The notes beneath the pieces are model-generated. The model did no database searches, had not been told where the DNA came from, and saw nothing but the letters and a program-made list of their open reading frames with translations. From assembly GCA_009602725.1 (NCBI GenBank), contig WELB01000302.1, positions 56,763 to 120,762 of the forward strand: DNA of 64,000 nucleotides, read 5' to 3'. The stretch is from Spirogloea muscicola (lineage: Eukaryota; Streptophyta; Zygnematophyceae; Spirogloeales; Spirogloeaceae). This document shows, in pieces, positions 905 to 61,350 of this stretch. Position 1 is the first letter of the stretch, and every line of letters starts with the position of its first letter. The position numbers and the translations under genes were made by a program.

Positions 905-1905
905 AGGCAGCAGCGAGGGCTCTGCCTGCACGCAGGTGCAGCGCGCGGGCCATAGACCTCTGCAGCGAGACGGCCAAGCGCATGCGGTACACCTGCGCTA
1001 GCAACCCTGCTGCCGATGAGGTCTTCAGGACGGCGGTCCACCGGCTCTTGGGCCTCCTCCCTCCCCTGCCTCGTGGGCGTCACTCAGTGCGAGTGCGGTG
1101 CCCGTCACGCTGAACCTGCGGAGCTGCCTGCACATATGCTTCGTTGCGCACACGGGGGCGAGCGGACCGCTTCCCACGACCTCTGCGAGATGGTATGCAG
1201 GAGGTGTTTTCGGAGGCTGGCTTTAAGGTCGCGGTGGAGAGCTCCTCCACAATGCCCATCCAGCTGGGCGCGGACGGCCAGCGCCATACACGACTCGCCG
1301 ACCTGGTCGCCATCCCGCCCGGCGGCGGTCCCCGCATCATCGCTGATGTGGTGACAACTGACTGCATCGACTCCGCCAATCCCACCAGATCGGCGTCGTT
1401 TGCAGGGCACGCGGTTGGCCAGGCGGCCCGGGGCAAGGAGCTATGCTGATCACCCGGTTGGGGATGAATTCGCGGCCCTGGCGATGGATGTACACGGGGC
1501 TTTCGGCAGCCGCTGGCTGGATCTCCTTCAGCGGCTTGCCCGCCAGGCCATTGACAGGCGGCCGGGTCTGCCAGGGGCGATGCCCGGCTTCAACGCCGCC
1601 GGTTCGCTCGCCCAAGTCTTCCGCATGCGCCTGGCCGTATCGCTTCAACGCTCCCTTGCCCACGTCGTCCACACGCGAGCAGGCCGTGCTATGGGTCTCG
1701 GCGGGGTGCCCTCTCTCCCTGCAGCGAGCTACTCAGACCTGATGTTGCTCACTCGTGGGTACTGAGCTTCCCTCTGCATCGTCTATGTTCTGCAGTGTTT
1801 TGTTAGTGTAGTCCTCTTTCCGGCTCCTCTTTCTTTGGCTTTAGACGTGGTCCATTCTTTTTTGGGCTGGCGTTGCCAGCCCCTCTTCTCTATGGGCGCG
1901 CACTT
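905..1905 (+). mobile_element. 5'-truncated LINE fragment (RLE domain), copy 1
   Basis: The end of a non-LTR retrotransposon ORF, stopping at TGA 1763-1765, followed by a ~140-bp 3' UTR. The translation holds a zinc-knuckle-like region (CxC..H..C, about 1085-1150). A PD-(D/E)xK-type core follows, with RxADLVA, about 15 residues, then IADVVTTD (about 1285-1370), and it ends with SDLMLLTRGY. The CCHC plus PDx(12-14)D arrangement is the known signature of restriction-like-endonuclease LINEs (R2/NeSL-like). The reading frame is interrupted relative to the copy at 19875-20955, which it closely matches. The UTR ends in a GGGCTGGC..GCCAGCCC hairpin and CTATGGGCGCGC. A DIRS-type origin was considered but is less likely. 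Confidence 0.75.
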
Positions 1906-2290: not shown

Positions 2291-2950
2291 CGTACGTCCT
2301 CCGCTGCGCTGATAGAGGCGAGCGAACGGCTGCCCATGACCACCTCAGGGATGCCATGTTCGGCATTTGGTGCACTGTGGCGCTGGAGAACACGTCCATC
2401 ATGCCCATCCTGCAGAAGAGCTGCCACTGCTGATGGTCTCCAGACTTGGTGGGTTGACCTGCTGGCCACCACGCCGGGCGGCTGCCTGCGATTCATCGCC
2501 GACGTGGTCATTTAGATGTGGTTGACTGCTCCAATCTGGGGCTCTCTGCCTCGAAGGCTGGACATGCAGCTGCGAACGCCGCTCGTGGCAAAGCGGCTAA
2601 GAACGTGGACCACCCGGATGGGGACGAGTTCGTCCCAGTGGCCGTTGATGTGCACGGGGCTTTAGGCCTCAGTGGTTTGACCTGTTGGCCCAGCTTGCAC
2701 GACGCGCTGTGTTCTGCAGGCGAGGTGAGCAGGCCGACTCCAATGCCGCTGGCTCGCTAGCTCAGGTCTCTCGCATGCGCCTGTCCATTTTGCTCCAGCG
2801 GTCCATGACTTACGCCGTGCATCTGCGTGCTGGCCGTGCTCCAGCTGCAGCCTCTGGCTTTCGTCATTTCGGGCGAGCCCTTTCTTGATTGCATTTCGGC
2901 TGCTAGTCGTTCTGATTTGCGTCTCCTCACTAGAGGTTACTAATTGTGGT
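2290..2950 (+). mobile_element. LINE fragment (RLE and C-terminus), forward copy
   Basis: Forward LINE remnant running from the zinc-knuckle part (LRCADRGERTAAHD) through FVPVAVDVHGALG to a decayed C-terminus ending LLTRGY at about 2940. The frame is broken several times. It belongs to the same family as the copies at 905-1905 and 19875-20955 but is more diverged, closer to the subfamily at 21525-22005. Confidence 0.65.
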
Positions 2951-3009
2951 CCCTACCGGGACAGCTTTGAGAAAGCGCAATGTGGCCCCTTCGAACCATG
3001 TCAACTCAT

Positions 3010-3210
3010 TTTTGGAAACCGATCTTGTACATTCTTTTGGGCTGGCCTCTCACAGCCACCAGTCAATTCGGAGGCGCTGTTCTTTCGGGCCGGCTGTTCA
3101 CAGCCCTTGGCCCCTTTTGGAGAGGTATTTTTTTCCTTCTTTCTTTCTTACTCTCTAGCCTGGCCATCTCCCCCTTCCTAGGCTGGCCATTGACTTCTTC
3201 TGGAAGATCC
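3010..3210 (+). repeat. hairpin tail repeats (A-like and B-like)
   Basis: Two adjacent units. A family-A unit at about 3035-3085 has GGGCTGGCCTCTCACAGCC and then CCAGTCAATTCGG. A B-like unit at about 3086-3125 has CGGGCCGGCTGTTCACAGCCC. A further GGCTGGCCATTGACTTC remnant lies near 3180. Both resemble the terminal hairpins of the LINE 3' UTRs elsewhere in the window. Confidence 0.6.
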
Positions 3211-17890: not shown

Positions 17891-18046
17891 TTATAAAAGA
17901 ACAAATATATATAAAAATAGAACCGAATAAAACATTAAACAAAATAATAAACAATTTTTAGCTTCTAATACATATTGTCAAAACATAAATAACCTAAATA
18001 ATAGTAGGCAAAAACCCTAGTGTTTAGTAGAATCATGTTTGCTATT

Positions 18047-18127
18047 GCCTTGGTGGTGAAATGGTAGACACGCGAGACTCAAAATCTCGTGCTGCAAAGC
18101 GTGGAGGTTCGAGTCCTCTTCAAGGCA
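18047..18127 (+). tRNA. trnL-CAA: plastid tRNA-Leu (CAA)
   Basis: An 81-nt cloverleaf. The acceptor stem pairs GCCTTGG with TCAAGGC. The anticodon stem is CGAGA/TCTCG with loop CTCAAAA (anticodon CAA), there is a long class II variable arm, and the T arm has GGTTCGAGTCC. The sequence is of the usual plastid trnL-CAA type. CCA is not encoded. Confidence 0.93.
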
Positions 18128-18642
18128 AAAAAAAATAGAATTCAAAATTATTGGTAAAAAAAATAAAATTTAATCAATTTGAATCAAATAATAAAAAATG
18201 ACTCAAAGATATTCAACTCATATTATGTTACAATAAGAAAGATCAAATATTTTTTTTGTAAATTGATTATTCAATCATTTATCTAAAGTAAAGATGATCT
18301 CTATCTTCTTTTTTCACAAAGACTGTGTTCCATCTTATCATCTCTTCTAACCTATAGACATAGATTAAACTCGTGAAAAGCTTGCATGAACGCATAGCTT
18401 CCACATTATTGTACCGATGTTAATAAACTGTGGCTATAGTTCTTTGTTGAAGTTTGTATATATTGTATTGTATATCTTGTTGATAATGATATTTATGTAG
18501 TTGCAAAAGCATTTTATATAAAATGCTTTTTTTCAGTTTCATTTTCATAAAATATCTTTGTTGTCAATGTGATTTTCTCGGCAATTTGTAAAAAAAAATT
18601 TGCTGTATCAGTACTATTTAATTTTTAAAAGGTTAGATTAAC

Positions 18643-19293: not shown

Positions 19294-19366
19294 TACGTCC
19301 AATAGGAATCGAACCTATATTGGAGGTTTAGAAGACCTCTGTCCTAATCCGTTAGACGATGGACGC
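19294..19366 (-). tRNA. trnR-UCU: plastid tRNA-Arg (UCU)
   Basis: A 73-nt cloverleaf on the minus strand. It starts GCGTCCATCGTCTAACGG, has anticodon loop CTTCTAA (UCU) and T arm GGTTCGATTCC, and the acceptor stem closes with TGGACGT plus discriminator A. It faces the end of atpA, the same convergent atpA/trnR-UCU order seen in streptophyte plastomes. Confidence 0.92.
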
Positions 19367-19499: not shown

Positions 19500-19870
19500 T
19501 GCCTAGCCTGTGGCTCTCGCTACTCAGACCTGATGTTGCTCACTCGTGGGTACTGAGCTTTCCTCTGCATCGTTTCTGTGTTCTGCAGTATGTTGTAGTG
19601 TAGTCCTTTCTCCGGCTCCTCTTGCTTTGGCTCTGGACATTGTCCATTCTTTTTTGGGCTGGCTTGGCCAGCCCCTCTTTTCTATGGGCGCGAATCCAAC
19701 ATGTGGCTCCGTCAGTAGAAGCAAGCGCGGCCAGATTGACTGGTGGCTGGGAGAGGCCAGCCCAAAAGAATGGACAAGGTCTGAAGGACTCGGAGTGCTA
19801 AGGACTGAGACAGCAGTAAGCGAACTCTCAGTAACCCCTCGTCAGTAGATGCAAATCTGAATAGCTAGCA
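19500..19870 (+). mobile_element. LINE 3' end plus hairpin-tail insertion
   Basis: A 5'-truncated LINE copy (same subfamily as 905-1905) begins near 19520 with the last codons (YSDLMLLTRGY). It continues through the 3' UTR with the GGGCTGGCTTGGCCAGCCC hairpin to CTATGGGCGCG at about 19690. A reverse family-A unit follows at about 19718-19790 (GGCCAGATTGACTGGTGGC..), with a longer stretch homologous to 58760-58830. Confidence 0.7.
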
Positions 19871-19874
19871 GGCG

Positions 19875-20955
19875 GAAAGACGTCGCCCTGACGGAAGCCG
19901 GAGGCCGCCGCCAGACCGCGGCCTGCGCGCAAGTGGACCGCAAAAGCTAGGGACCGCTGCAAAGAGACGGCCAGGCGCATCCTGCCTGACGAGGTCTTCC
20001 GAACGGCGGTCCACCGGCTCTTGGGCCTCCTCCCCCCCTGCCTCGTGGGCGTCCCTCAACGCGAGTGCGGTGTCCGACACGATGATCCTGCGGAGCTGGC
20101 CGCCCACATGCTCCGGTGCGCCCACGGGGGGGAGCGGACTGCCTCCCACGACCTCCTGCGCGACGGTATGCAGAGCAAGCGCGGCCAGATTAACTGGTGG
20201 CTGGGAGAGGCCAGCCCAAAAGAATGGACAGGGGGTGCAGGGGGTGTTTTCGGAGGCGGGCTTCAAGGTTGCGGTGGAGAACTCCTCAATCATGCCCATT
20301 CAGCTGGGCGCGGACGGCCAGCCCCATACGCGACGCGCAGACCTGGTCGCCATCCCTCCCGGCGGCGGTCCCCGCATCATCGCTGATGTGGTGACAACTG
20401 ACTGCATCGACTCCGCCAACCCCACCAGATCGGCGTCGTTTGCAGGGCACGCGGTCGGCCAGGCGGCCCGGGACAAGGAGCGAAAATACGCTGATCACCC
20501 GGTGGGGGATGAATTCGCGGCCCTGGCGATGGATGCACACGGGGCTTTCGGCAGCCGCTGGCTGGATCTCATTCAGCGGCTTGCCCGCCAGGCCATTGAA
20601 CGACGGCCGGGTCTGCCAGGGGCGATGCCCGGCTTCAACGCCGCCGGTCCGCTCGCACAAGTCTTCCTCATGCGCCTGGCCGTATCGCTTCAACGCTCCC
20701 TTGCCCACGCCGTCCATACGCGCGCAGGCCGTGCTATGGCCGCCGCCTCTGGGTTTCGGCGGAGTGCCTCTTTCCCTACAGCGAGCTACTCAGACCTGAT
20801 GTTGCTCACTCGTGGGTACTGAGCTTTCCTCTGCATCGTTTCTGTGTTCTGCAGTGTTTTGTAGTTTCTCCGGCTCCTCTTTCTTTGGCTTTGGACATTG
20901 TCCATTCTTTTTTGGGCTGGCTTTGCCAGCCCTTCTTCTCTATGGGCGCGCATTT
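19875..20955 (+). mobile_element. LINE fragment (RLE domain), copy 2, best preserved
   Basis: The best-preserved LINE C-terminal region here. On the + strand it encodes a zinc-knuckle-like segment, SEAGFKVAVE, RRADLVAIPPGGGPRIIADV and KERKYADHPVGDEF. The C-terminus ends SDLMLLTRGY (TGA 20820-20822). The PD-(D/E)xK layout fits the restriction-like endonuclease of early non-LTR elements. The 3' UTR runs to a GGGCTGGC..GCCAGCCC hairpin and CTATGGGCGCGC at about 20950. It is interrupted at 20174-20235 by a 62-bp hairpin-tail insertion. No reverse transcriptase domain is present, so the copy is 5'-truncated and inactive. Confidence 0.8.
20169..20240 (-). mobile_element. 62-bp family-A hairpin insertion with 5-bp duplication
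   Basis: The insert at 20174-20235 is absent from the otherwise matching LINE copy at ~1195. TGCAG (20169-20173 and 20236-20240) flanks it on both sides. In the sense (minus) direction it reads GTCCATTCTTTTGGGCTGG, then CCTCTCCCAGCCACC, CCAGTTAATCTGG and CCGCGCTTGC. These form two consecutive small hairpins. Confidence 0.8.
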
Positions 20956-21505
20956 CTGCATCCGGAAAACTTGGGCGAGGGACCCGGCGACATGGAAGCC
21001 AGGCTGCTCGCCCTGCTGCTCGTGGCGGCGGGCCGCTGCTCGCCGCGCAAGGTGGTGAAGTAGGTCAAGCCATTTGGCGCCAAAGGCGCCGTGTACGTCG
21101 ACGGCGAGTGGGACAAACTCGTCGCCTACCGGGTGATCGAAGTACCTGCGATCCTTTGCGTCGGCCGCTTGGCGGACGGCGTAGCCCGCCTCCTCCGCCG
21201 ACCGTGTAGCGCTCCTGGAATCGAAGGAGTCAGTTGTGACGACGTCGGCAGTGAGCTGAGGCCCCCCGCCGAGCGCGCTAGCGACGAGATCGGCGCGCCG
21301 GGTGTAGAGGCGGCCGTCCGCCCCAGCATTCAGAGGCATGATGCTGGAGTTCTCCAGCGCCACAGTGTAACCGGCTTCGACAAATATGCCGAACATCGCG
21401 TTCCGGAGCAGGTCGTGTGTGCCAGTCCGCTCCCCTCCCCGTGCGCACCAGAGCATATGGGCCGCCAGTGACGCCGCGTCCGGGCTGCGCGTCAATAACA
21501 CTGGT
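20956..21505 (-). mobile_element. LINE fragment (RLE domain), reverse copy 3
   Basis: Minus-strand LINE segment with AHMLWCARGGERTGTHD, RRADLVASALGGGPQLTADV, YFDHPVGDEFVPLAVDVHG and AQVFRM. Its own C-terminal end is replaced at ~20956 by the tail of forward copy 2, so the two elements meet tail to tail. The frame through the endonuclease core is open on this strand for about 180 codons. Confidence 0.75.
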
Positions 21506-21514
21506 ATGCATCTG

Positions 21515-22240
21515 GTTGGCTTTCACAGCCGCTCTTGCAATAGAGCCCACGCCTTCGTCCCCCTGGCTGTGGACGTGCACGGGGCTCTCGGATCCCACTG
21601 GCTCGACCTCTTGGCCAGGCTTGCACAGCGCGCTGTGTCCCGCAGGCGCGGTGAGCCGGCTGACTTCAACGCCGCTGGCTCGTGGGCTCAGGTATATCGT
21701 ATGTATCGTAGATTGTCCGTCTCCCTTCAGCGGTCCATGGACCACGCCTTGCATCTGCGTGCTGGCCGTGCTCTCGCTGCGGCCTCCGGTTTTCGTCAGG
21801 GGGATAGTTTTTCGGCAGCTAGTCTGTCGGATTCGAGGCTCCTCACTCGTAACTACTGAGTGGTCCATCCTCCCCCGTTCTGCCATAGCCTCTTCAGGCC
21901 CCGAAGTCGCTGCTTAGCTCGTACTTTGGCCCCTTCGAACCTTGTCAATTTTTTTCGGGCTGGCTTCTCACAGCCCTTGCCCCCATTGGGAGAGCCACTT
22001 CTTCTTACGCCTTGCATCTGCGTGCTGGCCGTGCTCTCGCTGCGGCCTCCGGCTTTCGTCAGGGGGATAGATTTCCGGCAGCTAGTCTGTCGGATTTGAG
22101 GCTCCTCAATAGTAACTACTGAGTGGTCCATCCTTCCCCGTTCTGCCATAGCCTCTTCAGGCCCCTTCGAACCTTGTCAACTCTTTTCGGGCTGGCTTCT
22201 CACAGCCCTTGCCCCATTGGGAGAGCCACTTCCTCTTAAA
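21515..22240 (+). mobile_element. LINE fragments, subfamily B, two nested copies
   Basis: A forward copy at ~21525-22005 encodes FVPLAVDVHGALGSHWLDLL through SDSRLLTRNY (TGA 21857-21859). Its 3' UTR has TTCTGCCATAGCCTCTTCAG and ends in the family-B hairpin (CGGGCTGGCTTCTCACAGCCC, then CCCCATTGGGAGAG). A second, more severely 5'-truncated copy with the same UTR follows directly (~22005-22240). This ties the family-B hairpin to a specific LINE 3' end. Confidence 0.75.
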
Positions 22241-22425: not shown

Positions 22426-25400
22426 ATGGCCGCCGCGTCCCCGCCGCCGCCGCCGCCGCCGCCGCCAGCGGGTGCAGAGGCTGGCGAGCGTCCGAGCCTC
22501 GTCCGCGGCGGCGCCGGCGGCGGTGGCGGGGACGGCGCGCCGGAGGCCGGCTTCTCNTACGCGCGCACGGACGGCGGCCGGCGGCCATCGTCGGCGCGCC
22601 ACGGAGGTCCGATGCCGGTGCTGGGCCCCGGCGTGGGCGCGCTGGTGCGGGCGCTGCGGCAGCAGAAGGGCCGCGAGGGCGTGCATGCGGTGCTGGAGCC
22701 CGCCATCGCCTCCCAGGTCCGGCACCTTCCTAACCACAGGTCAGAACTAGGGGTTTAGTATATGACCGTGGGATCTCAGGCCTCACAGCTCAGGCTTTCA
22801 GAGGCCCCAGAATGTGAGATGGGGCCCTGGGCGTCACTGCAGTGCCGCCATGGCGTCCCACCAGCCCAGAGCCTCTGAGTACTCGTCCACGGGGCCGGCA
22901 TTGGGCGGCTTCTCGAGCTGCGCAGCACCTCGGCAACCATCAGCTAGCCAGTGTGCACTCTGATGTGTTTGCTGTCGAGACGCACTTCTGATACGTCTCA
23001 GTCTGCTGCACAGAGTTTCAGGGCGGACCTGGCGGCGGCGCTGGCCGAGCTTCGGCGGCAGCAGCTGTGGCCGCTGCTCACAGAGGTCAGTCTGCACGCC
23101 ACCTTCTGGATGACGCTCCCACGCTGCAGTGAGATTCGTCATCGTGGCGAGATACCTCGGTGTGGCCGCCGGCCCTGATGGATTTAACGGCAGAGGAGCA
23201 GAAAGCAGGACTAGCCTCATGCCAATCCATGAAGAAGTTGGTGGTGCAGACTGCACAGCGCCTGTGATGCACTCAAAGGACTGTCAGGCAAGATGGTCAG
23301 CAGCTCACCAAGACGCTTTGCCGTCCAGGTCTATGAGTGGCTCCTGAACTGCGGGCGCTTCCAGCCGGACACCGTGGTCGTAAATCTCCTGCTGGAAGCT
23401 TACGTCAGGCAGCACCTTGCTGTCAAGGCCGAGGCGCTCTTTGCGCGCATGACTGAGCAGCAGCTTCCCAACTTTCCGACTGAGGCCTCGTGGAGCCTCC
23501 TGATGCGCACCCACACCAATGCCGGACAGCTGCGCAGTGCCGAGGAGGTATTCAGCCACATGGTTGCCCAAGGCTTCCGACCAGGTGAGGCCCCCCCCTT
23601 GCAAGCTAGTGAACAGTCAAATGTTTCTTGATCTGGTAAAATTAGGCTGAAGACCCCACAATGCTTTGGGTGGTTTCTCTTGCTCGCCCACACAATCAGC
23701 AGGAAATTTGCTGAAAGTAAAGTACTGTCATGATACTTAGCGGCAGAAGCGTGCTCAACAGCTGCTTACTGTCAATCAGCTCTTTCAAGCGCTGAAAAGG
23801 TTCGAAAGCAGCTGCTTGCTCTCATCTGCAGGAGACGGTGCTGCTTGACCCTTGCATCTTTGTCATCTGTCGTATGCTTCATTTGGGGTCCTGCTTGAGA
23901 TTTCACGTGCTAGTTAATATACCAGATGACCAGCAACCCACTCAGCTTGGACATATCTAGGTGTTGGAATGTACAACACGTTGCTGGAGGTTCTAGGGAG
24001 GGGGGGCAAGTTTGACCAGGCCACGAGGGTCTTCGAGAGTGAAATGCTGACATCCGGAGTGCAGCCAGACCTCAGCACCTTCACGATCATGGTCAACATA
24101 CATGGAAAGGTAGCCATAATGGTTGTTTGCTCATCTTGTTGCTCATCTCAACTGCTCCTTGCCGCTTTCGTGTTACTCACAAATGTAAAGGAACAAGCAT
24201 GACTCGCTGGCATATCATGTACAAGATAATTCTCGCTTGATGCAGGCCCGCCGTCCTGAGAAGGCTTCACGTGTCTTCCGAAGCATTTATGGCGCGCTCC
24301 TTGTCCCAGATGTACACTCTTTCGTGGCCCTGATCAACGCCTATGCTGCAGTAGGCGCCCATGACAAGGCCCACGAGACTTTTGAAGCGTTGCTAGAGGC
24401 GGGGTTTGAGCCCGACACTGATGTCTTCAATGGCCTCCTGCAAGCCCACTGGTAGGCCTGTCCCATTGTATCAAGGCTCCATCATGTAGGCCTATGCGTT
24501 AGATTAGAACGTTGCTAGCCATCTCATCCTGAGCACTGAAGCTTCCTGATATTATCACGGCTCACTTGCCAGCTGCTACAGCTACATTGGGCTTATAGTC
24601 GCCAAGCACCTAATTGCCATTGTGCAGTCAAGCAGACAACATTGACGGACTTATCCACGTACATGATGCGATGACAAGGGTGGGCTGCAAACCAGATCAG
24701 GGGACCTACCACATATTGATGAGCGCGTTTGGCAGAGCCGGACACTGGCTAGGTGATTACTTGCTGGGTCCTAGATATGACAAAATACGGTGGTCTTGTC
24801 TATGTGGCTCTCTCTGGACTGTCTTGATCTTGTGAGCTCCTCGACACGCATTTGAGGACCAAGCACAACAGCCTCAACATGTCACTTGGGCAGGCATCAC
24901 TTTCCTGGTGTGTAGCCCAGGAACCCTGATCACAAGTTTTTTTGATGCTTGGGCAGATTCTGTGAGGAGCTTCACAGAGATGAAAGCAGCAGGATATGCA
25001 GCTACTCACGTTACAAATATGCTGCTTCTGGAAGCTTATGCTGAAGCAGGAAGAGTGGAAGAAGCAGAAAAAATAGTCCACGAGATGGAGTCTGGTGGAC
25101 CTGAACCAGATGTAAGAGTCTACAATCACCTTCTGCGTGCATATGGAGCGGCTGGTTCGTTGGACAAGATGGCAGCCTTGTATGAGGAGATGAGAGCTGG
25201 GCCTGTTGTCTTGCCGAATCTAGCATCGCACACAGCAATGATGAGATCTTATGCCGATCATGATAACCAGGAAAAGTGTCTAGAGGTTTTCGTAGCCAGC
25301 AGGACGAATGGGCTTGTGGCGGACACAGCGATGTGGACTGCCCTCATTGCCTTCTATGCTAAGCGCAAGCTCTTCCGGAAAGCTATGGCCACCTACGATA

Positions 25401-25591
25401 AGATGGTAGATGCGGGCTGCTCGCCGGACTCTGCAACAGCGCAGGCCCTCTACTTGTCTTGCCGCAGCCCAGAGCAGGAGTTCGAGGTCCATGGCAAGCT
25501 GCGAACAGCAAATATTACAAATTACATGCCTCACTCAAATCTGCAAAAGAGGAGGTTTGGTATTGACACAACAATCACTGCACAAATGTAA
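22426..25591 (+). CDS. pentatricopeptide repeat (PPR) protein
   Basis: P-class PPR protein, an RNA-binding helical repeat protein that normally acts on plastid or mitochondrial transcripts. Seven exons join in phase: 22426-22716, 23014-23085, 23329-23584, 23961-24109, 24246-24451, 24628-24752 and 24957-25591, giving ~577 residues. Exon 1 encodes an Ala/Pro/Gly-rich leader with nine consecutive prolines, plausible as an organelle transit peptide. Exons 3-7 carry about ten 35-residue PPR units, such as TVVVNLLLEAYVRQHLAVKA, MYNTLLEVLGRGGKFDQATR and RVYNHLLRAYGAAGSLDKM. No PLS, E, DYW or SMR domain is seen. The N at 22557 falls in exon 1 and the frame holds if it is one base. It is convergent with the TrpD-like gene. 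Confidence 0.88.
22557..22557. other. single N inside PPR exon 1
   Basis: Undetermined base in a GC-rich coding stretch. The reading frame continues on both sides if exactly one base is counted. Confidence 0.6.
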
Positions 25592-32347: not shown

Positions 32348-33471
32348 CACTGGTGAGGGCTTGTCTGTATGAGCTGATTGCCAATTTTGCAGAGCGGCTC
32401 GAGAGGCATATTGTATCAAAGCCACCTCTCAGAGTGTGATGCCCATTGTTTGGCCATTGCCTAATTTGAAACACCTCTGCGAGCAACTTTGCATATTTGC
32501 TCCGTGAACATTGGTCAGTCATCTTCCTTACTTCTTGCAAACTGATTAAATGAGGAGCTTGAGATTTGCCAATTGGCCTTCCTTAACTAGCTCAGCCTGT
32601 AGTTTTGCCTTGTGCGAGTGTGTCACAGCAAAATCTCGCAGTTTAGCCACCAGCAGCACACAGGTCCAGATTATTGTGGTACAGTGAGGCTTAACAACTT
32701 TGAACACAGAGAAGCAGCCACAGTGGCACTGGTGTAGATTGTGGCTTCCCAAGTGGAGCCGGTAGCAGAGCTCCTTGAAATGACAATGCGTTGGTGCTCT
32801 CGGGCTCCAGTAGCCAAAATTTAGCTCGATGTGGCCGCTGGAAACACACAAATGTTTGTGGATGCTTCTTCGGCGAGGGTAAAGAGAAGGTGGCTGCCAA
32901 GGGCATTGTCAAGGGCATTGTGGAAGCCACTCGAGTGCATACTGAGGAAGTTTTCCAGTGCATATACATGACACAGGAGCCTCAGGCCAGCTCAAGCCCT
33001 TCTGTACCCGTGTCAACAGTTGGAAAAAAGGAAGGCGAGGGGAACAAGAAGTCCACCACTGCCCAAGCAGTCTGCAGGGCGCAACCGGGACGGTGGCAAA
33101 GCAAGCGACTGGGACTGCTGCAGAACGGTGCAAGGCCTGGCTGGCCCCTTTCTCTGAAAGCTCTCAACTAAACTGCCCAGCAAGTTGTAAAACTTCGTAA
33201 CATTGCTAGATCTGAAGCTTAGAAGAAGGTGCAAGCATACTGACTGCTGCAACCCATTCCTTTGGGCTGGCCTCTCCCAGCCACCAGTTCATCTGGCCAC
33301 GCTCGCCGCAACCCTCTTGATCGTGCGCTTCGCAGTGTGCACCCAAGTGCGTGCATGCATGACGGCAGAAGGCCGCTTGGCTTGCCAGCATTCCAGGCCG
33401 AGCTGCAGTATCAGGACCTGCCCCGGCGCACACCGCGTAAGGAGACGAGGAGCGACCGCAGCGGCGTCGGA
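32348..33471. other. intergenic
   Basis: Contains the 3' flank of the 2H gene and the promoter of the next gene. A 126-codon open frame at 32791-33171 has no recognisable domain or intron pattern, and I do not call it. A hairpin-tail insertion sits at 33256-33307. Confidence 0.45.
33249..33314 (+). mobile_element. 52-bp family-A hairpin insertion with 7-bp duplication
   Basis: A stand-alone family-A unit at 33256-33307 (ATTCCTTTGGGCTGG, then CCTCTCCCAGCC, CCAGTTCATCTGG and CCACGCTCGCC) is flanked on both sides by GCAACCC (33249-33255 and 33308-33314). It lies about 165 bp upstream of the next gene's start codon. It holds the same two tandem hairpins as the copies at 20174-20235 and 19718-19770. 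Confidence 0.85.
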
Positions 33472-34232
33472 ATGCTGCGGGTGATATCGGGCGGGCAGAC
33501 GGGCGTCGACCGGGGCGCGCTGGACGCCGCCATGGAGCTCGGGCTGCCACACGGGGGCTGCTGCCCGCGGGGCCGGCTTGCGGAGGACGGCGCGGTGCCG
33601 GCTACGTACAGCGGCCTGGTGGAGCTGGAGACGGCTTCGTACGAGGCCAGGACCTTTCGGAACGTCCTGGACAGCGACGCGACGCTCATCCTCCACAGGG
33701 CGGCGCCGCTGGCGGGCGGCACGCAGCTCACCGCCCAAGTCGCGGCGCAGCTCGGCAAGCCCTGCCTCTGCCTGCTGCTGGACAGGTGCGCACCACCCGC
33801 CAGGCCCTTGCACTCGCCGAAGCTGCTATGCCTCAAACTTCATGACAGAGCAGCTCTGGGAAAGGCTGACTTGGGACTGGGTATTGCAGACTGTACAGCC
33901 TCATCTGCACATTGAGCCCCGAATTGTGTTGACCCCAGTGTTCTCAAGCTACACCAAATTGCAGGCTACATGAAGAGGCGTCCTTCGGCAGTCCGGATGC
34001 TCACTTAATTGACCTGCTCCAAATACAATGCAGGCAAGAGGTGGCCTTCGGTGATCAGATTGAAAGAATTCTCCGCTGGTTGCACCGATACCACGTTGCA
34101 AACCTCAATGTTGCTGGTCCACGGGAGAGTGAGGAACCAGGCATTCAAGCGGTTGCATACACAATCCTGAATACGGCAGTGAGCCAGTATTTGAAGTTGC
34201 ATTCCACAGGCTCCCACTTGCTGCATAGGTGA
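33472..34232 (+). CDS. YpsA/molybdenum-cofactor-carrier-like protein
   Basis: Rossmann-like protein of the YpsA/MoCo-carrier family (LOG/DprA-like superfamily). Exons 33472-33785 and 34034-34232 join in phase to give 170 residues, the normal family length. Visible motifs are the N-terminal LRVISGGQTGVDRGALDAA, then GLPHGGCCPRGR.AEDG, SDATLI and GGTQLT, and the C-terminal LNVAGPRESEEPGI. The GGQTG and GGT loops form the expected nucleotide-type binding site. Bacterial members are best known next to mobile or phage genes, and one algal member binds molybdenum cofactor. The substrate here is unknown. The UAG/TGA region is followed at once by TGTAA (34240-34244), the common green-algal polyadenylation signal. 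Confidence 0.86.
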
Positions 34233-45355: not shown

Positions 45356-45461
45356 CTAGTTGGGGTGCCGATTATCAAGCCTTCTAGCCAGTCAGTAGGC
45401 TACTACTCCCACCAGCCGTCTTGCCCCACTTCCCTGCACCCCGCCCGCCGCAGCTGCAGCC

Positions 45462-46493
45462 ATGGCCGCCACCTCCGTCTTCTTTGGGCAGGCCGTCGCC
45501 GCTCCCTCTGCCTTGGCCCTCAACAATGTCAAGGTAGGTGTGCAAATTGATGTGTTTATCCTTCCAAAGTACAGCGTTGTGCTGCAACTCTGCGACGCAC
45601 TCCTCGGCCTGCAGCTCGACGAGAATCCAATTGCTGGAAGCGGTCCGCATAACGAAAGCGCGGCGGCAATGCTCTACCTCCTGACTGAATACGATGATCA
45701 TAATCGCCACGTCTGTTTTGTCCAGGCCAAGCAGGAGAGCAGTGCTGCACCTGCGCCGGCGCTCGCTATTCGGGCGTCCGCTGAGGAGCCATCTTCGCGT
45801 CGGCAGGTCCTGAGCCTGGCGGCTGGCGTGCTTGCTGCAGGAGCCCTCTTCGCCACCCCCGCCAAGGCCGGCCTCATTGAGGATCTACTGGAGAAGAGCA
45901 AGGCTAACAAGGTCCACACTCGCCCTCAAAGCAGGACGCAGACACTTGGCAAGTAGGTCCGATGTTCCTTCCGCCAGCCTTCTCAAGCCGTGGAAGGCAG
46001 CAAGGCCTTGTGTTGATGAGCTCTTGGCGGTGTGTAATTGCAGGAGTTGAACGACGCCAAGCGGCTGGCGACTGTTGGCGCCAACACGGCGCGTGCCTAC
46101 ACTGTGCAGCAGGGCACCTGCCAGTTCCCTAACAACTTCACTGGTTGCGATGATCTTGCAAAGCGCCAGGTTCGCCCTCTGCTCCAGCAGTTAGCAGACT
46201 CTGCATTGGGCTCCAGCATTCTTAGGCAGCAGCTTTGAGATGCAATAAAGAAGTGAGTGAGGAGGCTCCCTACTTTACGATCTCAAAGGCCTTGTGGTGC
46301 TTGGGGCTTATTCATGCAGAATGTCAAATTCATCACGGACGACTTGGACCTGGAGTGTGTTGGTAAGGAGCCTGGCAAGTGCGCATCCAACAACCTCTGG
46401 AACAAGAATCTGCCGGCGCCCAAATTCAAGCAGGCTTCTGCCAACCGCAAATCCTCCCAGGGAAAGCCAACCACTGTTGCTCAGCCGTCGTAG
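45462..46493 (+). CDS. PSAN: photosystem I subunit N (PsaN) precursor
   Basis: Extrinsic lumenal subunit of photosystem I that helps plastocyanin dock. Four exons join in phase: 45462-45533, 45726-45911, 46044-46169 and 46320-46493 (TAG), giving 185 residues. The leader is bipartite: a stromal transit peptide (MAATSVFFGQAVAAPS..) and then a thylakoid signal with a twin arginine (SSRRQVLSLAAG) and an AKA cleavage site before GLIEDLLEKS. PsaN is known to use the Tat pathway, which agrees. The mature part is very like plant PsaN: ELNDAKRLATVGANTARAYT, CQFPNNFTGCDDLA, FITDDLDLECVGK and CASNNLW, with the four conserved cysteines. It continues about 28 residues past the usual end with a basic, Ser/Pro-rich tail (NLPAPKFKQ.. 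to VAQPS). Confidence 0.97.
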
Positions 46494-51239: not shown

Positions 51240-51925
51240 GCTGCCGTCAAGCGGATGGCACGCCGCGCTATCGCACGTCCAGGCCTGGAGGAGAAGGCGC
51301 GCGGTGCGCATGACATGAAAGGGAAAGTCAGGACGGCGGAAAGTGGGATGTGCTCCAGGTCTACAATTGGCCTTCGGCTGCCGTCACAAGCACCGGTTTC
51401 CCGACGTCGGCTGCCCTTTCGCACGGTGCACCTTACAAGCCGACCTTGGGCTACTGCAGCTGCGGCTGCGGCGTCCGACCCGACGGTGGGAGCGTGGGCC
51501 CTGTCTGTGCCCTGGAAAGGGAGAAGGCGCGCGGTGCGCATGAAATTGAAAGGGAGGCCAATTCAAGCCTTACAAATGTCCTCTTAACTGGGTAATGAGC
51601 TGGCTAAGGGGGACACCAATATCCCCGAGTGAGCACATGCATATCTGACAAGCTAAGCTGAGGCGCCAAACCACCACCACGGAAGCCATTAGCCTGTGCT
51701 AATGCACGACCAGCACGCTGGTGTGGAAGAGCCTTCCTTTTTGGAAGTGCCGTTCCTTTCATGGGATTCGTGGGTCTTCGGTCGACAACCAACGACGGCA
51801 AAGCCCGCGGAGCGTGCCACTCTTGCGCGCCCCCGCCGGCCGCCTGCCCCGCGCCCAAGCCACGGAGGGCGCCCGCGCCCGCAGATTGAACGAGTATCAT
51901 CGTTACTCAAGGGGCTGAGAGCCTG
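51240..51925 (-). mobile_element. LINE debris with motif D copies
   Basis: On the minus strand 51900-51604 ends with AGRALAQANGF..LSDMHVLTRGYW, the C-terminus of another diverged LINE subfamily. On the plus strand, motif D (GAGAAGGCGCGCGGTGCGCA) occurs twice, at 51292-51330 and 51517-51555. No intact domain remains. Confidence 0.55.
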
Positions 51926-52145: not shown

Positions 52146-55100
52146 ATGGCCGTTGCAAGGAACTCAGTAGAGGAACCATTGGACTCTCCAGGCGATGAGG
52201 ACTTTCGGTCAGCTAAGTTCTTCTACAGCGGGGGCTACAGTACCCCGAGGGCTGAGAGAGATGCTAGCCTTTTGAAGGTGATGATGACATCCATAAGGTC
52301 AGCCACAGATTCACATGCGGCTCAATCTCGCCAAGATGATTGTGGTACACGGCCTTGCGTCTCAACAGATCCCTCAAGCACCTGGCTGCGTGAGGAAGGA
52401 TAGGGTCATACGGCAAGCCAAAATGTTGCTAGTAGTTGCGAAGCACACTTTGTACGTGCCAGCAGGACTTGCAATTTTGCGACCTTGATGCTCTTCTGAG
52501 TAAGAGATGACATGCATTAGTGGGCTGCTCTTGTGCTTTGACACGCAGGAAGCTCTAGCAACTGGCTTCTGAATGATTTAGCCTGTAGTAAGTTGCGCAG
52601 CCATTGCTAAGTCGTGAGTCTGCCTTCTATTGAAATATAGGATGGTGCCGGAAGTTGCCGTAGAGACCCCTACTTCCGCTTTCAAAGAAGCTCCCACAGA
52701 AGCAGATGATGATGCTGTGTCCCTACTCCATAGGTGAGGTGCAGATGAACTATCTGCAATCTGGTTGCAATCTGCTGAGCAAAGCTGCTGTATTTCCTTG
52801 TTATCTATAGGCCAGGCGCAGGTAGTCACCGTAGTTATCCCTGAGAGGTCAATTTAAGCTCGTAAATTCGCCCTTAATCTTCCTGTACTCTTCTCCATGG
52901 GGTCCTGCAGCAAGCTGATAATCTGACCGTAATCATATTATGATGCTTCATGTCCCTAGTAGCAAGTTGAGCGGGGAGCTTGACTATGATGATCTGGTCT
53001 TCTCGCCTGTCAATTATCCAAGTCATCGGGTAGGCCCAACTTCTCCTGTGATCCTGTACAGTAAGTCAAGCAAGCTCTGTGCACAGCTCTGAGTCATAAT
53101 CTGCTGAGTGCAGGTCAATGTGACCAAACAGCAGAAGGAAAGGCAAACCTGCACCAAGTATGCCCTGATCAGAGCAGATAATATTTCATAGCGTGCACTA
53201 GAAGGTAAGGAATGAGCTATACTTTGTCATTGATTGCTGTGATTTCACTGTACTTTGTGTGGCAGACGCCCTTTTATCGCCGTTGCTTTGGATTCCTGCT
53301 GAAGCGACCGCTCGTTGGGGTTATGATATTTGCAGCAATTATAATACTCTTAGTTGCTGGTCGCAGTGCACAACATCTGCCAGCCTGCCACAATATCTTA
53401 CTCATAGGTAACAGATGTAATCAAGTGGCTCACAACGGCAATAAGAATGCTGGTTGTAGTCATGTACTTCTGCTAATTCATGGTCCTTCCCTGCAAGTCA
53501 TAATACTGACTGCCGTTAGTCAAATGTCTGGTGCAGTGCCCACAGTGGCAGATATGTCTTTGAAAGAGAAACTTGGGCAGATGATAATGGCCAGTATGGT
53601 TGACCTGAATAATGGCAAGGACATTAGTACATACTTTCTCGGAGCAGTGACAAGCCAGCCTGGCGAGCACCCTCGATCTGGAGCATCAGCAAAGGACTGG
53701 GCAGACATGACTTCATTGTACCAAGCCAGGGCTTTGAGTACAAGATTACGGATTCCAATAATCTATGGTGTTGAGGCCAATCATGGACATGGCTCTGTTT
53801 ACGGCGCAACAATCTTCCCCCACGCGATTGGGCTTGGAGCAACTGGCAACCATTCATTACTCCAGCTTGTGGCCTTTGCAGGTCAGCGCCAGCCTCCTGG
53901 TTCACAAGCCAGAGAGTAGGTTCTTGTCAAGACCTCTGTGCAATGCCAGCATCAGATTGTGATGAGAGTCTGGTCTCTGAGCAACGTAACACCAAGGTTC
54001 TGAACTTGCACTAGCACCATGGTGTAGTTTACGTGTGAATAAGAAGTAAGCTAGTGCAGTTGCATGCATAAGGCTAGCAAAGTATCAGATTGCCTATTTT
54101 CTGCATAGTCATGGCTAATGTCAATGTTTCTTGCACCTAGCAGTTGCTGAAGAGATGGCTGCCACAGGCATTCGTTGGAATCTTGGCCCTATGCTTTCCA
54201 CTTGCCTGGATCCACGGTGGGGAAGATGTTACGAGTGTTTCAGTGAAAGCAAGCACCTAGTATCAGCCCTTAACACGCAGCTGACCGGATTCTCAGGGGA
54301 TCCAACCAGTTTAGAGAAGTCAGAAACGAGAAGGTGATTTCACAAGGCCGTGAATCAAGGCAAGACTTGGATATAGATAAATCGGTGTTTGCGATGAGTT
54401 TCACTTACATAGTCTATCTTTGTTCTTTTGTGCTGAGAGAATTATTTGCTTATTTGTGAGCCAACAACATCAGCGTTGAATGGAATTGGCAGCTGGTTTG
54501 TGCTGCTACTGGAAACATTTGTTGGTGTCAAGGACGTGTCTCTCGCACTGACCAGCTTCTAGCCAGTTCTCTCAGGGAGTTGGTGGCAACTTGCGGTAAA
54601 TTCTTCTATGGAGCAGGTGGCACAGCAAGTGCTTTGACTAGTGGAGACACAGAAGGCTCAGATGCATTTGTGCGATCTCTAGACTTCCTCTCGTTTTTTG
54701 ATGCGCGGGTGAGGTAAGATTTTGAATGGCGAGAGGGTCAGGGCAGTTCATGCAATCTTGAAATTGGTATACAATCTGCGCAAGGAGTCAGTATGTTTAG
54801 ACGTAAGTGGCCCTCTATATCTGATGTTGAGTGTTGTGGCATCCTTGAATACTGTCGGCACCTTGTATGTGATGCCATACCGATTAAGTCGCAATCCGCT
54901 AGGTCGAGAGGAATACGTGCAACATCCTCGTATACAAGAGCAGGACTAGGAGCAGGGCAATCTGTTTTCTCAAAGAACTGTGTTGCAGTGCTTACTGAGC
55001 TCTTTCCTGGTATGCAGGGGCATCAATTCCTTCATGCTTAACAATGGCAGCATCAATGGGTCATCTGTGCATGGCAACCCCTACTTCGCAAATACTTTGC

Positions 55101-56887: not shown

Positions 56888-57290
56888 TTGTGCAACTACT
56901 TTCTGTTACCGTGGACGGCACTGTGCCTGCATCATTGGCTAGTCACTTGCGTCGCGCATAGCTGCAATGTGCAAGGACCATAACGGGCTGCACACGTCAT
57001 CGAATCATGGAGAAGTCCTTGCTGCGCTTCGACCAAGACAAGTGGGGGGGGGGGCCAAGTGCAGCAACTAATGTGCCGTGGCAATGGCAGGGGCACGTCC
57101 CAAGCAGGGACTCTGGGGGAGAGCAAAACAAGGTGTGCGCACGGTGCGCATGATGTGAAAGGGAGGACAATGCGAGCCTTACAGTGCCATAGTAATGGAG
57201 GAATAGGCTGCCTTTCGAAGGCGGGAGTGCCCAAGGCAGAAGGCGTAACCTTCAATTACGCAAAAGAAGGAAAGCGCGGCCCAATTTATT
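56888..57290. other. intergenic with motif D
   Basis: 3' flank of the GH3 gene. Motif D lies near 57128-57170 (GCACGGTGCGCATGATGTGAA). A G9 run lies at 57044-57052. No gene seen. Confidence 0.45.
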
Positions 57291-57395
57291 GGTGGCTGTG
57301 AGAGGCCAGCCCAAAGGAGTGGACAAGGTCCGAAGGGGAAAAGAGAGAGGCGCGCGGGGGGAGGCCAATTCAAGCCAGTACATTTTCAAGGCAGA
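57275..57395 (-). repeat. family-A hairpin tail and flank
   Basis: Reverse family-A unit at about 57275-57325: GCGCGGCCCAATTTATTGGTGGC, then TGTGAGAGGCCAGCCCAAAGG and AGTGGACAAGGTCC. In this copy the second hairpin arm has changed to CCAATTTATTGG and still pairs perfectly. Confidence 0.65.
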
Positions 57396-58649: not shown

Positions 58650-58830
58650 AGAGGCAAGCGCGGCCAGATTAAGTGGTGGCTGGGAGAGGCCAGCCCAAAG
58701 AAGAAGTGGCTCTCCCAATGGGGGCAAGGGCTGTGAGAAGCCAGCCCGAAAAGAATTGACAAGGTTCGAGCCCAAAAGAATGGACAAGGTCTGAAGGAGT
58801 CGGAGTGCTAAGGACGGAGACAGCAGCCCA
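58650..58830 (-). mobile_element. family-B tail inserted into a family-A tail, 8-bp duplication
   Basis: A reverse family-A unit (GGCCAGATTAAGTGGTGGC.. to GGCCAGCCCAAA) is split by a 69-bp reverse family-B unit at 58700-58768. It resumes with CCCAAAAGAATGGACAAGG. The octamer AGCCCAAA stands at both edges (58692-58699 and 58769-58776). The downstream part, to ~58830, matches 19760-19830. Confidence 0.82.
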
Positions 58831-61350
58831 TTTTAGTGGCCAGGACAGCCTGGTCGAGGGCGGGCACATACGACGTGGCTGGCCTGTCGTGGCTGTACTG
58901 ATCAATATATGTACGGCCCTCACACATGTCATGTCTAGTCATACAAGAGTACACTGCTCATTTTTCCAGGAGGCGGCAACGTTGCGCAGGTTACCAGCCT
59001 CACCAATTTCGGGGAGCCGGCTTCGTCTTGCGGCAGCCAACCTCGGCGCTTTGAGGGCCCTTTCCTTTCCTTTTGCTTTTGGAGTTTGGGAGAGCCACTT
59101 TCCGACCTTGTCCACTTCTCTCTTTGGGCTCACCTTGTCCGTGCTTCTCTGACCTGCCCTTGCTGACTAGAGGTTGCTGATCTTCCAGTCGCAGAGAAGT
59201 GAGCTCTTCTAAAGGGGGCGAGGGCAGTGAAAGAAAAGTGAACTCTTCCAAAGGGGTCGAGGGCTGTGAATATCCAGCCCCAGAAGAATTGTCGTAGAAG
59301 TCACAGAATGCAGTCATTTTCTATTGCACTTCCGGTCCTCTCAGACACTCCTATGGGCTAGCCTCTCACCGCCAATGCCCTACATTGCCTTTGGTGCTGG
59401 CTTCTCAGCTGGCTTCTCAACTTGAGCTTTATGGTAATCAATGTGCTCACTCGTGGGTACTAGAGACCCCCTTAGACAGGCTCATTGCCCTGTTACCAGG
59501 GCCTTTATAAGAGTCGGAGTGGCCCCTCCCTTTCATTCCATGTGCACTGCGCGCCTTTCTTCTTTCCTTGGAATGAGAGAGCTGCTCCCAGTTGGGCTGG
59601 CCTTTCACAGCCCTTGCCCCCCCCTTAAGGAAGAGCTTACATCCTTTTGCCCCATTTCTGACGAACATCGTATTCGGGCTGGCCTGTCACAGTCATTGTC
59701 CTATTTAGAAGCGCTTCTCGTCAAACAACAAAAGCTCTTCCAGGGACGGTGGCTGTGGAACGAGAAGTAAGCTCTTTCAAAGGGGCGGAAATCTGTGAAA
59801 CGAAAAGCTCGTCCAAAGCAAGGCGTTGGCTGTAAGAGGCCAACCCAAAAAGTCTGAAAGGGCAAACAGGGGCAAAACTACGATGATATCCCATGACTTA
59901 CACGGATGGGCGCTCATTAACCGCTAGTCAAGTAAACAGAGGGCGGGAGGTAGTTGCGGTGAAAGGCCAGCCCCAAAAGTTTGACCAAGTGAAGGAGGAA
60001 GTCGCAGCAGAGAAGCACTGCGTCCATCCTCCAGACCGCAATGGTGGCGGTTCGGACTGCCCAGCGTGGTGCTTGCGTGGCCAGCCACGTGGGCAATATC
60101 GTCTTGTCTGAATGGAGGAGGCGACCAGGAGCGTACGGCGCGCGGTCGTCGCGGAGCCGACGGCGGATGGTGGGGTTGAGTGCGGGGGCATGCGGGGCTA
60201 AGCCGACTGCGTGGGGCTCGCGTGGAAGAAAAGAAACCTTGTTCAGAAGAGGGGAAGGGCGCGCGCGCGGTGCGCATGAAATTAACTTCAAGCTTCAAAC
60301 CAATGAGTTGTCCAGAAGGGGGGCCATGGCTGTGAAAGGCCAGCCCTTTGGAGTGGAAGCACTGTGTTTTGATAGGAGCGCCTCTTCTAATGACGAGGCA
60401 GTGGCTGTGAAAGAAAGAAGTCTCGCAGTGCACATTGACTAAAGGGAGGCCAAGCCGAGAGAGTACTGTTCAGGTCTTTGCGCCTCCCGACCCTCTCAGA
60501 CCTTGTTCATTCCTTTTGGCTGGCCTCTCACAGCCATTGCCTTACATCTTCTAGGCAGTTGGCTAGTGCAAAGTATGAAGCACCACAAGGTTAAGCCATA
60601 GGCTAGGGATGAGGGGCTAAAGTAACAGGGCGAATGCACAGCTCGAGGGGGACTCTAGTCCCACGACCGAAGAACCCCATTCAGCCGGCTTTCACTCTGT
60701 TACCTTAGCCCCACTAACTATACGTTTCTCCTTTCGCATAGCCCCAACCTTTGCATCAGCTTTTGCCTGAACAATGAATTGGCTTGATGTGGCCTCCCAT
60801 TCATGGCATGCGCACCATGCACCTTTCACCACAAGTGAGTACGTACAGATTCACAGGCTAATCTGGGGAGCCAAAGCACCGCCATGGGAGCCAGTGGCCT
60901 GGCATGTGCGCACCAGCACGTTGATGCATGTGTGAGGAAAGGAAGAAGCTCATAGATAAGGGGCGATGGCTGTGAAAGCCAGCCCAAAGACACCCCAGCC
61001 ACCAGTTAATATGGCCGCGCTTGCTTCCAAAGACATAGAAGGTACGCGGTGCAAATACGATAAAAATTCAACCCGATAACAAAAGGAAGGAACGAGGTGG
61101 CAGGCTCGTCGTGGCGGGGCGCCAGCTGTATGCCCCGGCTGTGCCAGTCCCGGAGCTGGCGGTGCTTGGTCTGCTATCATGAGTGGCTGGCCTCTCACGC
61201 GCCGTACGCTCGCTCCGCCGCTTGGCGCGGCCAGCCCCGTTGTTGCGCAGCGGCCGGCTGGCCCTGTCCCCCGTCGCACTTCGGCCCTTACAGACCTTGT
61301 TTGTCCTTCAATCCTTTTGGCTGGCCTCTCAGAGCCATTTTTTTCCTGAG
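58831..61350. repeat. dense field of decayed hairpin tails and motif D
   Basis: No gene recognised in 2.5 kb. Tail units (GGCTGG..CAGCC core with a CATTCTTTT-like or CTCTTCCAAAGGGG flank) occur near 59205-59290, 59595-59640, 59675-59700, 59755-59850, 59945-59975, 60315-60350, 60500-60540, 60955-61015 and 61305-61345, in both orientations. Motif D occurs near 59520-59560, 60255-60280 and 60790-60830. Copies are more diverged than those in 19500-22240, so this block is probably older. Confidence 0.6.

Follow-up and report, generated by a model that had tools for sequence, protein, structure and literature searches.

Stringent-type LINEs such as UnaL2, ZfL2-1, and ZfL2-2 are described as having a 3' UTR that ends in a stem-loop followed by a short tail (PMC4176376), which in UnaL2 is given as TGTAA repeats (PMC3747384). 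For the zebrafish ZfL2 elements, it was reported that the stem is recognized generally and the loop specifically (PMC4176376). In the green lineage, the RandI/Dualen LINEs and the SINEX elements of Chlamydomonas provide examples of 3' tails common to short elements, and of non-poly(A) 3' repeats, among them (CTTT)n in SINEX-2 (PMC3747384). The same source presents the proposal by Ohshima that specific 3'-end recognition was ancestral in green-plant LINEs and was relaxed later (PMC3747384). In RLE LINEs (R2, Dualen/RandI, and others), a CCHC motif precedes a restriction-like nuclease toward the C-terminal end of the long ORF (domain order as described in PMC5678591). Here, we describe a LINE-like family (named family A) in Spirogloea muscicola, an alga of the Zygnematophyceae with a reported genome size of 174 Mb (PMC11096116). 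As in stringent-type LINEs, the 3' UTR of family A ends in a predicted stem-loop plus a short tail, and this stem-loop is kept in its copies and in related subfamilies; comparably to the stem and loop recognition in ZfL2, the sister subfamilies keep the stem and differ in the loops. Unlike UnaL2 and ZfL2, which are members of the L2 clade, family A has two consecutive hairpins and a pyrimidine tail. Unlike the RandI/Dualen-SINEX system, the host is a streptophyte and the short copies are graded truncations that have no SINE 5' part of their own. No title or abstract opening among the open-licence papers listed was found to name family A, which does not show that the family is unpublished.

The analyzed window is a 64,000-nt stretch of contig WELB01000302.1. 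At positions 33256-33307 (+) it contains a 52-bp unit, flanked by a 5' copy (33249-33255) and a 3' copy (33308-33314) of the heptamer GCAACCC, both on the plus strand; the 3' copy is also supported by alignment to related loci. The letters at 33249-33314 thus agree with the first-pass annotation of this DNA, which had claimed a unit between perfect GCAACCC repeats. The two consecutive hairpins that it had claimed are likewise present, both in the sequence and in the predicted RNA fold: a 6-bp stem (GGCTGG/CCAGCC, 33265-33270 and 33277-33282) and a 4-bp stem (CCAG/CTGG, 33284-33287 and 33293-33296). Based on the sequence, the fold, and the alignment to the family 3' end, the unit very probably derives from the 3' terminus of a non-LTR (LINE-like) retrotransposon and is 5'-truncated. 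An ORF with a cpYpsA (SLOG) domain lies just downstream (33481-33792, +; Pfam E-value 1.6e-37), and the stub is located upstream of the in-frame ATG at 33355.

We searched the genome assembly (153 Mb, 471 contigs) with window positions 32700-33900 (1201 bp) as the query for empty sites. Apart from the window and scattered copies of the unit, the matches comprised two related loci, on contigs C88 and C247. The alignment of C88 consists of four pieces, one of which is inverted; query positions 284-556 correspond to 533445-533716 and query positions 606-1133 to 533707-534230, the latter segment, around the cpYpsA domain, being 90% identical. By these alignment coordinates, the 52-bp unit is absent at C88 and the two flanks overlap, so that ten subject bases serve both of them. 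A single GCAACCC, placed at C88:533710-533716 from the alignment coordinates, would represent the target before insertion. At C247, query positions 26-1134 (1109 bases) aligned to 1043 bases, and this shortfall of 66 bases fits the absence of the unit, as the unit plus one repeat would account for 59 and small indels for the rest. The claim of insertion into a nuclear genome is therefore borne out by a related site at C88 that lacks the unit and has the target bases common to both flanks. This putative empty site is evidence independent of the duplication statistics for the locus at 33256-33307, and, as far as letters and alignment coordinates can tell, the comparison shows that the 52-bp unit was inserted in this chromosome with a duplicated target.

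Edges and flanking repeats were tabulated for 105 alignments reaching the 3' end. Most of these copies were fetched by their match to a 24-nt core or to the window unit and are a non-random set; because they were chosen by the 3' end, the constancy of this end is partly a product of selection, and a few diverged relatives are included whose upstream sequence differs for that reason. The 3' end is constant. Upstream of the hairpins, the copies have sequence in common that ends at differing points, giving lengths from 25 to 1031 nt (median 90 nt; 58 of 105 below 100 nt). The fullest 20-nt length bin (60-80 nt) holds 26 of the 105 copies, and the commonest exact 5' end is found in five. For target-site duplications, flanks of different copies were paired as a control, and 103 copies had usable flanks. 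Exact repeats of at least 6 bp at the expected place were observed in 40 copies, compared to 11.1 expected from mismatched pairs; for at least 7 bp, the numbers were 26 and 3.5 (about seven-fold over the control), and for at least 8 bp, 15 and 1.3. The longest exact duplication is 18 bp. Among the 26 duplications of at least 7 bp, the first duplicated base is T in 15, C in six, G in five, and A in none, that is, a pyrimidine in 21. No exact duplication of at least 6 bp was detected in 63 of the 103 copies, and none of at least 7 bp in 77; the lack of an exact repeat of at least 7 bp might be due to age, to mismatches, to duplications that are short, or to misplaced edges. Copies bearing a duplication of at least 7 bp range in length from 25 to 751 nt, so one mechanism appears to serve short and long copies alike. 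The claim of one constant end together with duplications of varying length is upheld by these copies. The orientation of 12 close copy pairs (four head-to-head, two tail-to-tail, and six tandem) gave no clear excess, and a special mechanism for head-to-head pairs, which make up only four of the 12, was dropped.

Longer copies extend from the hairpins through a 3' UTR of about 110 nt into an ORF ending ...SYSDLHLLTRGY (also given as ...AAASGFRQGDVFPPASYSDLHLLTRGY), and their alignment identifies the 52-bp unit with the extreme 3' end of an element that carries an ORF. Genome-wide, 4539 sites match the 24-nt core with at most two mismatches (2275 + 2264), and none match its reversed control pattern. 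For a 24-nt piece at the ORF end of family A, 812 sites match with at most two mismatches; comparison of the two counts gives a rough excess of tails over ORF ends of 5.6 to 1, a ratio that faster divergence of the ORF end would inflate. A tblastn query with the 301-aa C-terminal part of the ORF (131 scored of 22013 first-look candidates) listed, among its matches, two ORF copies with 86-87% identity, located in open frames of 1521 aa (about C36:488667-493233) and 1517 aa (upstream of C411:18068), and a few others list longer frames of up to 6037 aa that may span masked N. The view of the 52-bp unit as a mobile element in itself, and as one of the smallest retroposed units, is not supported: it is one point in a graded series of 5' truncations, and a shorter stub of 34 bp occurs in the same window.

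That stub (60993-61026, +) is cut inside hairpin 1 according to its sequence and the edge analysis, and is flanked by the 9-bp duplication CCAAAGACA at 60984-60992 and 61027-61035. Another family A stub, of 57 bp plus five G at its truncated end, lies at 20174-20235 (-) within an ORF of another element copy; its duplication is TGCAG (20169-20173 and 20236-20240), and paralogues of the interrupted ORF (locus L058 and window 1183-1440) are uninterrupted at the insertion point. Alignment revealed a longer family A copy at 19717-19983 (-), composed of the ORF end (19831-19983) and 3' UTR (19717-19830), a family A stub joined directly to a family B 3' end at 58653-58699 (-), and diverged family A-like 3' ends at 57272-57336 (-) and 3021-3078 (+). 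Related copies at 20174-20235, 19718, 57280, and 58653 had been named in the first-pass annotation, and all of them exist; their strands were only partly right, as all four, including 20174-20235, are on the minus strand, leaving 33256 as the only plus-strand copy among the five. The copy at 19718 is also not the short unit it was taken for, given that it continues upstream into ORF sequence. By tblastn, a C-terminal fragment of the family A ORF, 87% identical to L063, was found at 20932-21489 (-). Tblastn and UTR comparison further placed two C-terminal ORF parts of sister subfamilies on the plus strand, namely, a nuclease-like region of subfamily C (20241-20819), with the same kind of hairpin in its 3' UTR 95 nt past the ORF, and the ORF end of subfamily B (21554-21856, ..LLTRNY*), after which comes the hairpin of the family B 3' UTR. 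Near this cluster of elements, tRNA-Leu (CAA) and tRNA-Arg (TCT) genes are located at 18046-18128 (+) and 19294-19366 (-), respectively.

Related ORF ends are followed by differing 3' UTRs and include A (..GCTGGCCTCTCCCAGCCACCAGTTAATCTGGCCGCGCTTGC), B (..CGGGCTGGCTTCTCACAGCCCTTGCCCCCATTGGGAGAGCCACTTCTTC), C (..GGGCTGGCTTTGCCAGCCCCTCTTCTCTATGGGCGCGCACTTCT), D, and others. A stem of the GGGCTGG/CCAGCCC type is kept in sister subfamilies, with varying loops. The hairpin was found within 200 nt of the stop codon in 31 of 34 family A ends and 29 of 44 other ORF ends, compared to 592 of 4000 random windows from the same DNA; at least two ends of family A, L065 and L054, were counted among the others by the text rule used for grouping. 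Further ORF subfamilies have no GGGCTGG hairpin (L003, L040, L063 at 2842-3000, and window 51619-51717), and their 3' UTR reads GGCTTGAATTGGCCTCC...GCGCACCGCGCGCCTTCTC or similar. The aligned copies and subfamilies together show an apparently constant 3' end, a ragged 5' end, duplications above chance, and a hairpin common to sister subfamilies. A long-range outer helix between an upstream TTGTCCATT box and a downstream ATGGGC motif, attractive by eye, was rejected because pairing within the same copy did not exceed that with shuffled partners (p = 0.47 for 41 clusters and p = 0.78 for the top six). Some sister subfamilies have their last ~70 nt in common (L051 and L064). In addition, family B 3' ends are joined directly to truncated family A tails, as at window positions 58653-58770 (minus strand). 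The junction CTTCTTC|TTTGGG recurs at three loci (L022, L029, and the window), as does CTTCTTC|TCCCAG (L008, L056, and L058). These B-A fusions could have arisen via template jumping, by insertion at the B end, or as mobilized chimeras.

The C-terminal part of the protein contains a CCHC-like motif, CX1CX11-12HX3C (CX1CX12HX3C in L063 and CX1CX11HX3C in L010), followed by RADLV..DVVTTD..AKERKY and a PLAVDVHGAFG stretch. We take its D..D..K..KY pattern to resemble the restriction-like nuclease, of the PD-(D/E)XK type, at the C-terminus of R2-type LINEs. The CCHC spacing given for RLE LINEs is CX2-3CX7-8HX4C, which differs from that observed here, and family A insertions are dispersed, whereas RLE LINEs are described as generally site-specific (PMC5678591). 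Pfam and PDB sequences yielded no match to the C-terminal part, and AlphaFold modeled the C-terminal ORF of the window poorly, with a mean pLDDT of 46. No RVT_1 match among those listed (150 scored of 985 candidates) was positioned ahead of the C-terminal ORF. When the lists were compared by eye, two RVT_1 matches (on C120 and C31) shared their strand with listed ORF copies 2-3 kb away but lay on the 3' side of them, the opposite of the order in a LINE. With a generic LINE-RT query, 46 weak matches were listed, none of them ahead of a listed ORF copy, and a scan of the fetched DNA for LINE RT motifs detected no full motif and only two isolated DD-like strings. In IMG/VR, the peptide pattern of the C-terminal ORF occurs in 22 stretches, none encoding a relative, and the core pattern has 0 matches. 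We infer that family A has a reverse transcriptase; since none was placed before the ORF, the CCHC spacing differs, and Pfam and PDB gave no match, the element is called LINE-like by its behavior. The RVT_1 search returned six loci (L067-L072), of which the two translated are both gypsy-like. All six candidates have identical RVT_1 scores and open frames of 1172-1237 aa, and L067 and L068 look identical over 1003 aa; in view of this identity and the identical scores, this gypsy-like family looks young.

Several other origins of the short unit were weighed. Predominance of short copies, fullness of the 60-80 nt bin, and the last ~70 nt common to some sister subfamilies could reflect a separate minimal SINE, that is, a master RNA of 50-75 nt with a borrowed LINE 3' tail mobilized in trans, and divergence is slightly greater in short copies (mean identity 0.89, n = 57) than in long copies (0.94, n = 36). 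However, no discrete 5' start exists, even the largest pile being small, the sequence upstream in longer copies is the element's own 3' UTR and ORF, and the 60-80 nt bin consists in part of diverged subfamilies whose upstream differs. We therefore consider such a SINE very unlikely. A unit spliced out as an intron (an introner) would also be short, dispersed, and flanked by duplications, and the copy at 33256 sits just 5' of the cpYpsA-domain ORF; but no consistent splice-site-like ends were seen by eye among the listed units, several of which lie inside element ORFs or other repeats, and this origin has next to no credibility.

For a MITE or another cut-and-paste DNA element, shortness, hairpins, and direct repeats at the flanks would be ordinary features. 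Against it speak the ragged state of one end, ends that do not form inverted repeats of one another, a duplication length that is not fixed (from 7 to 18 bp in the exact cases counted and 5 bp at 20174), and the gradation of copies up to a 1-kb element with an ORF. Terminal repeats, either LTR or inverted, were not seen in the truncated copies. A cut-and-paste element is extremely improbable, and the preference of the first-pass annotation for target-primed reverse transcription over a cut-and-paste transposase agrees with the variable duplications and with one constant and one ragged end. A 7-bp repeat at a single locus is weak evidence in itself, given that about 3.4% of mismatched flank pairs have a repeat of at least 7 bp at the expected place, so that a non-mobile repeat or decayed sequence flanked by chance repeats might be supposed. 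Such an explanation is already contradicted by the empty related site at C88 and by the roughly seven-fold excess of duplications of at least 7 bp, and it is hardly conceivable.

Under the preferred reading, a 5'-truncated family A retrotransposon, the element RNA would terminate in the pair of small hairpins followed by a short tail of pyrimidines (GCTTGC plus Y), and the element protein would bind the 3' hairpin structure. The protein would presumably nick one target strand at a pyrimidine-rich site, and the freed target 3' end would prime cDNA synthesis that begins at the 3' end of the RNA. Drop-off of the polymerase may often come within about 100 nt, here at about 52 nt; a staggered break in the second strand would then be repaired, leaving a duplication of about 5-18 bp. 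It is conceivable, but unlikely, that the last ~50 nt act as a portable retrotransposition tag, by which transcripts ending in a stub are picked up by the family protein. If so, not all stubs would be dead, some could serve as promoterless minimal SINEs, LINE families could swap tails, and the recurrent B-A fusions would be mobilized chimeras.

Family A is ordinary in kind and unusual in extent. Thousands of tiny hairpins in this genome would be the debris of one copy-and-paste superfamily and, as such debris, do not warrant annotation as elements of their own, as MITEs, or as RNAs. A LINE-like lineage with a structured, non-poly(A) 3' end, probably in a streptophyte alga, bears on the proposal by Ohshima as presented in PMC3747384. 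Stubs with empty related sites may also serve as markers for dating element activity relative to the apparent genome multiplication. A genome triplication has been reported for S. muscicola (PMC9065682, PMC7994812), and our guess is that the three related loci for the unit at 33256-33307 and near-identical antenna genes are compatible with it. The near-identical antenna gene copies are found at L039-L041 and at L042-L043. An Lhca4-like protein encoded in the genome scores about 218-270 bits against one group of PDB antenna chains, taken to be land-plant Lhca4, and 185 bits or less against the others, which agrees with a streptophyte host. A spliced-leader pattern, expected of a dinoflagellate host, had 0 matches, as did a primer-like 18S pattern. 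Other ORFs in the window match PsaN of photosystem I (45399-45953, +), PPR repeats (24836-25591, +), and glycosyl hydrolase family 3 (53209-53919, +).
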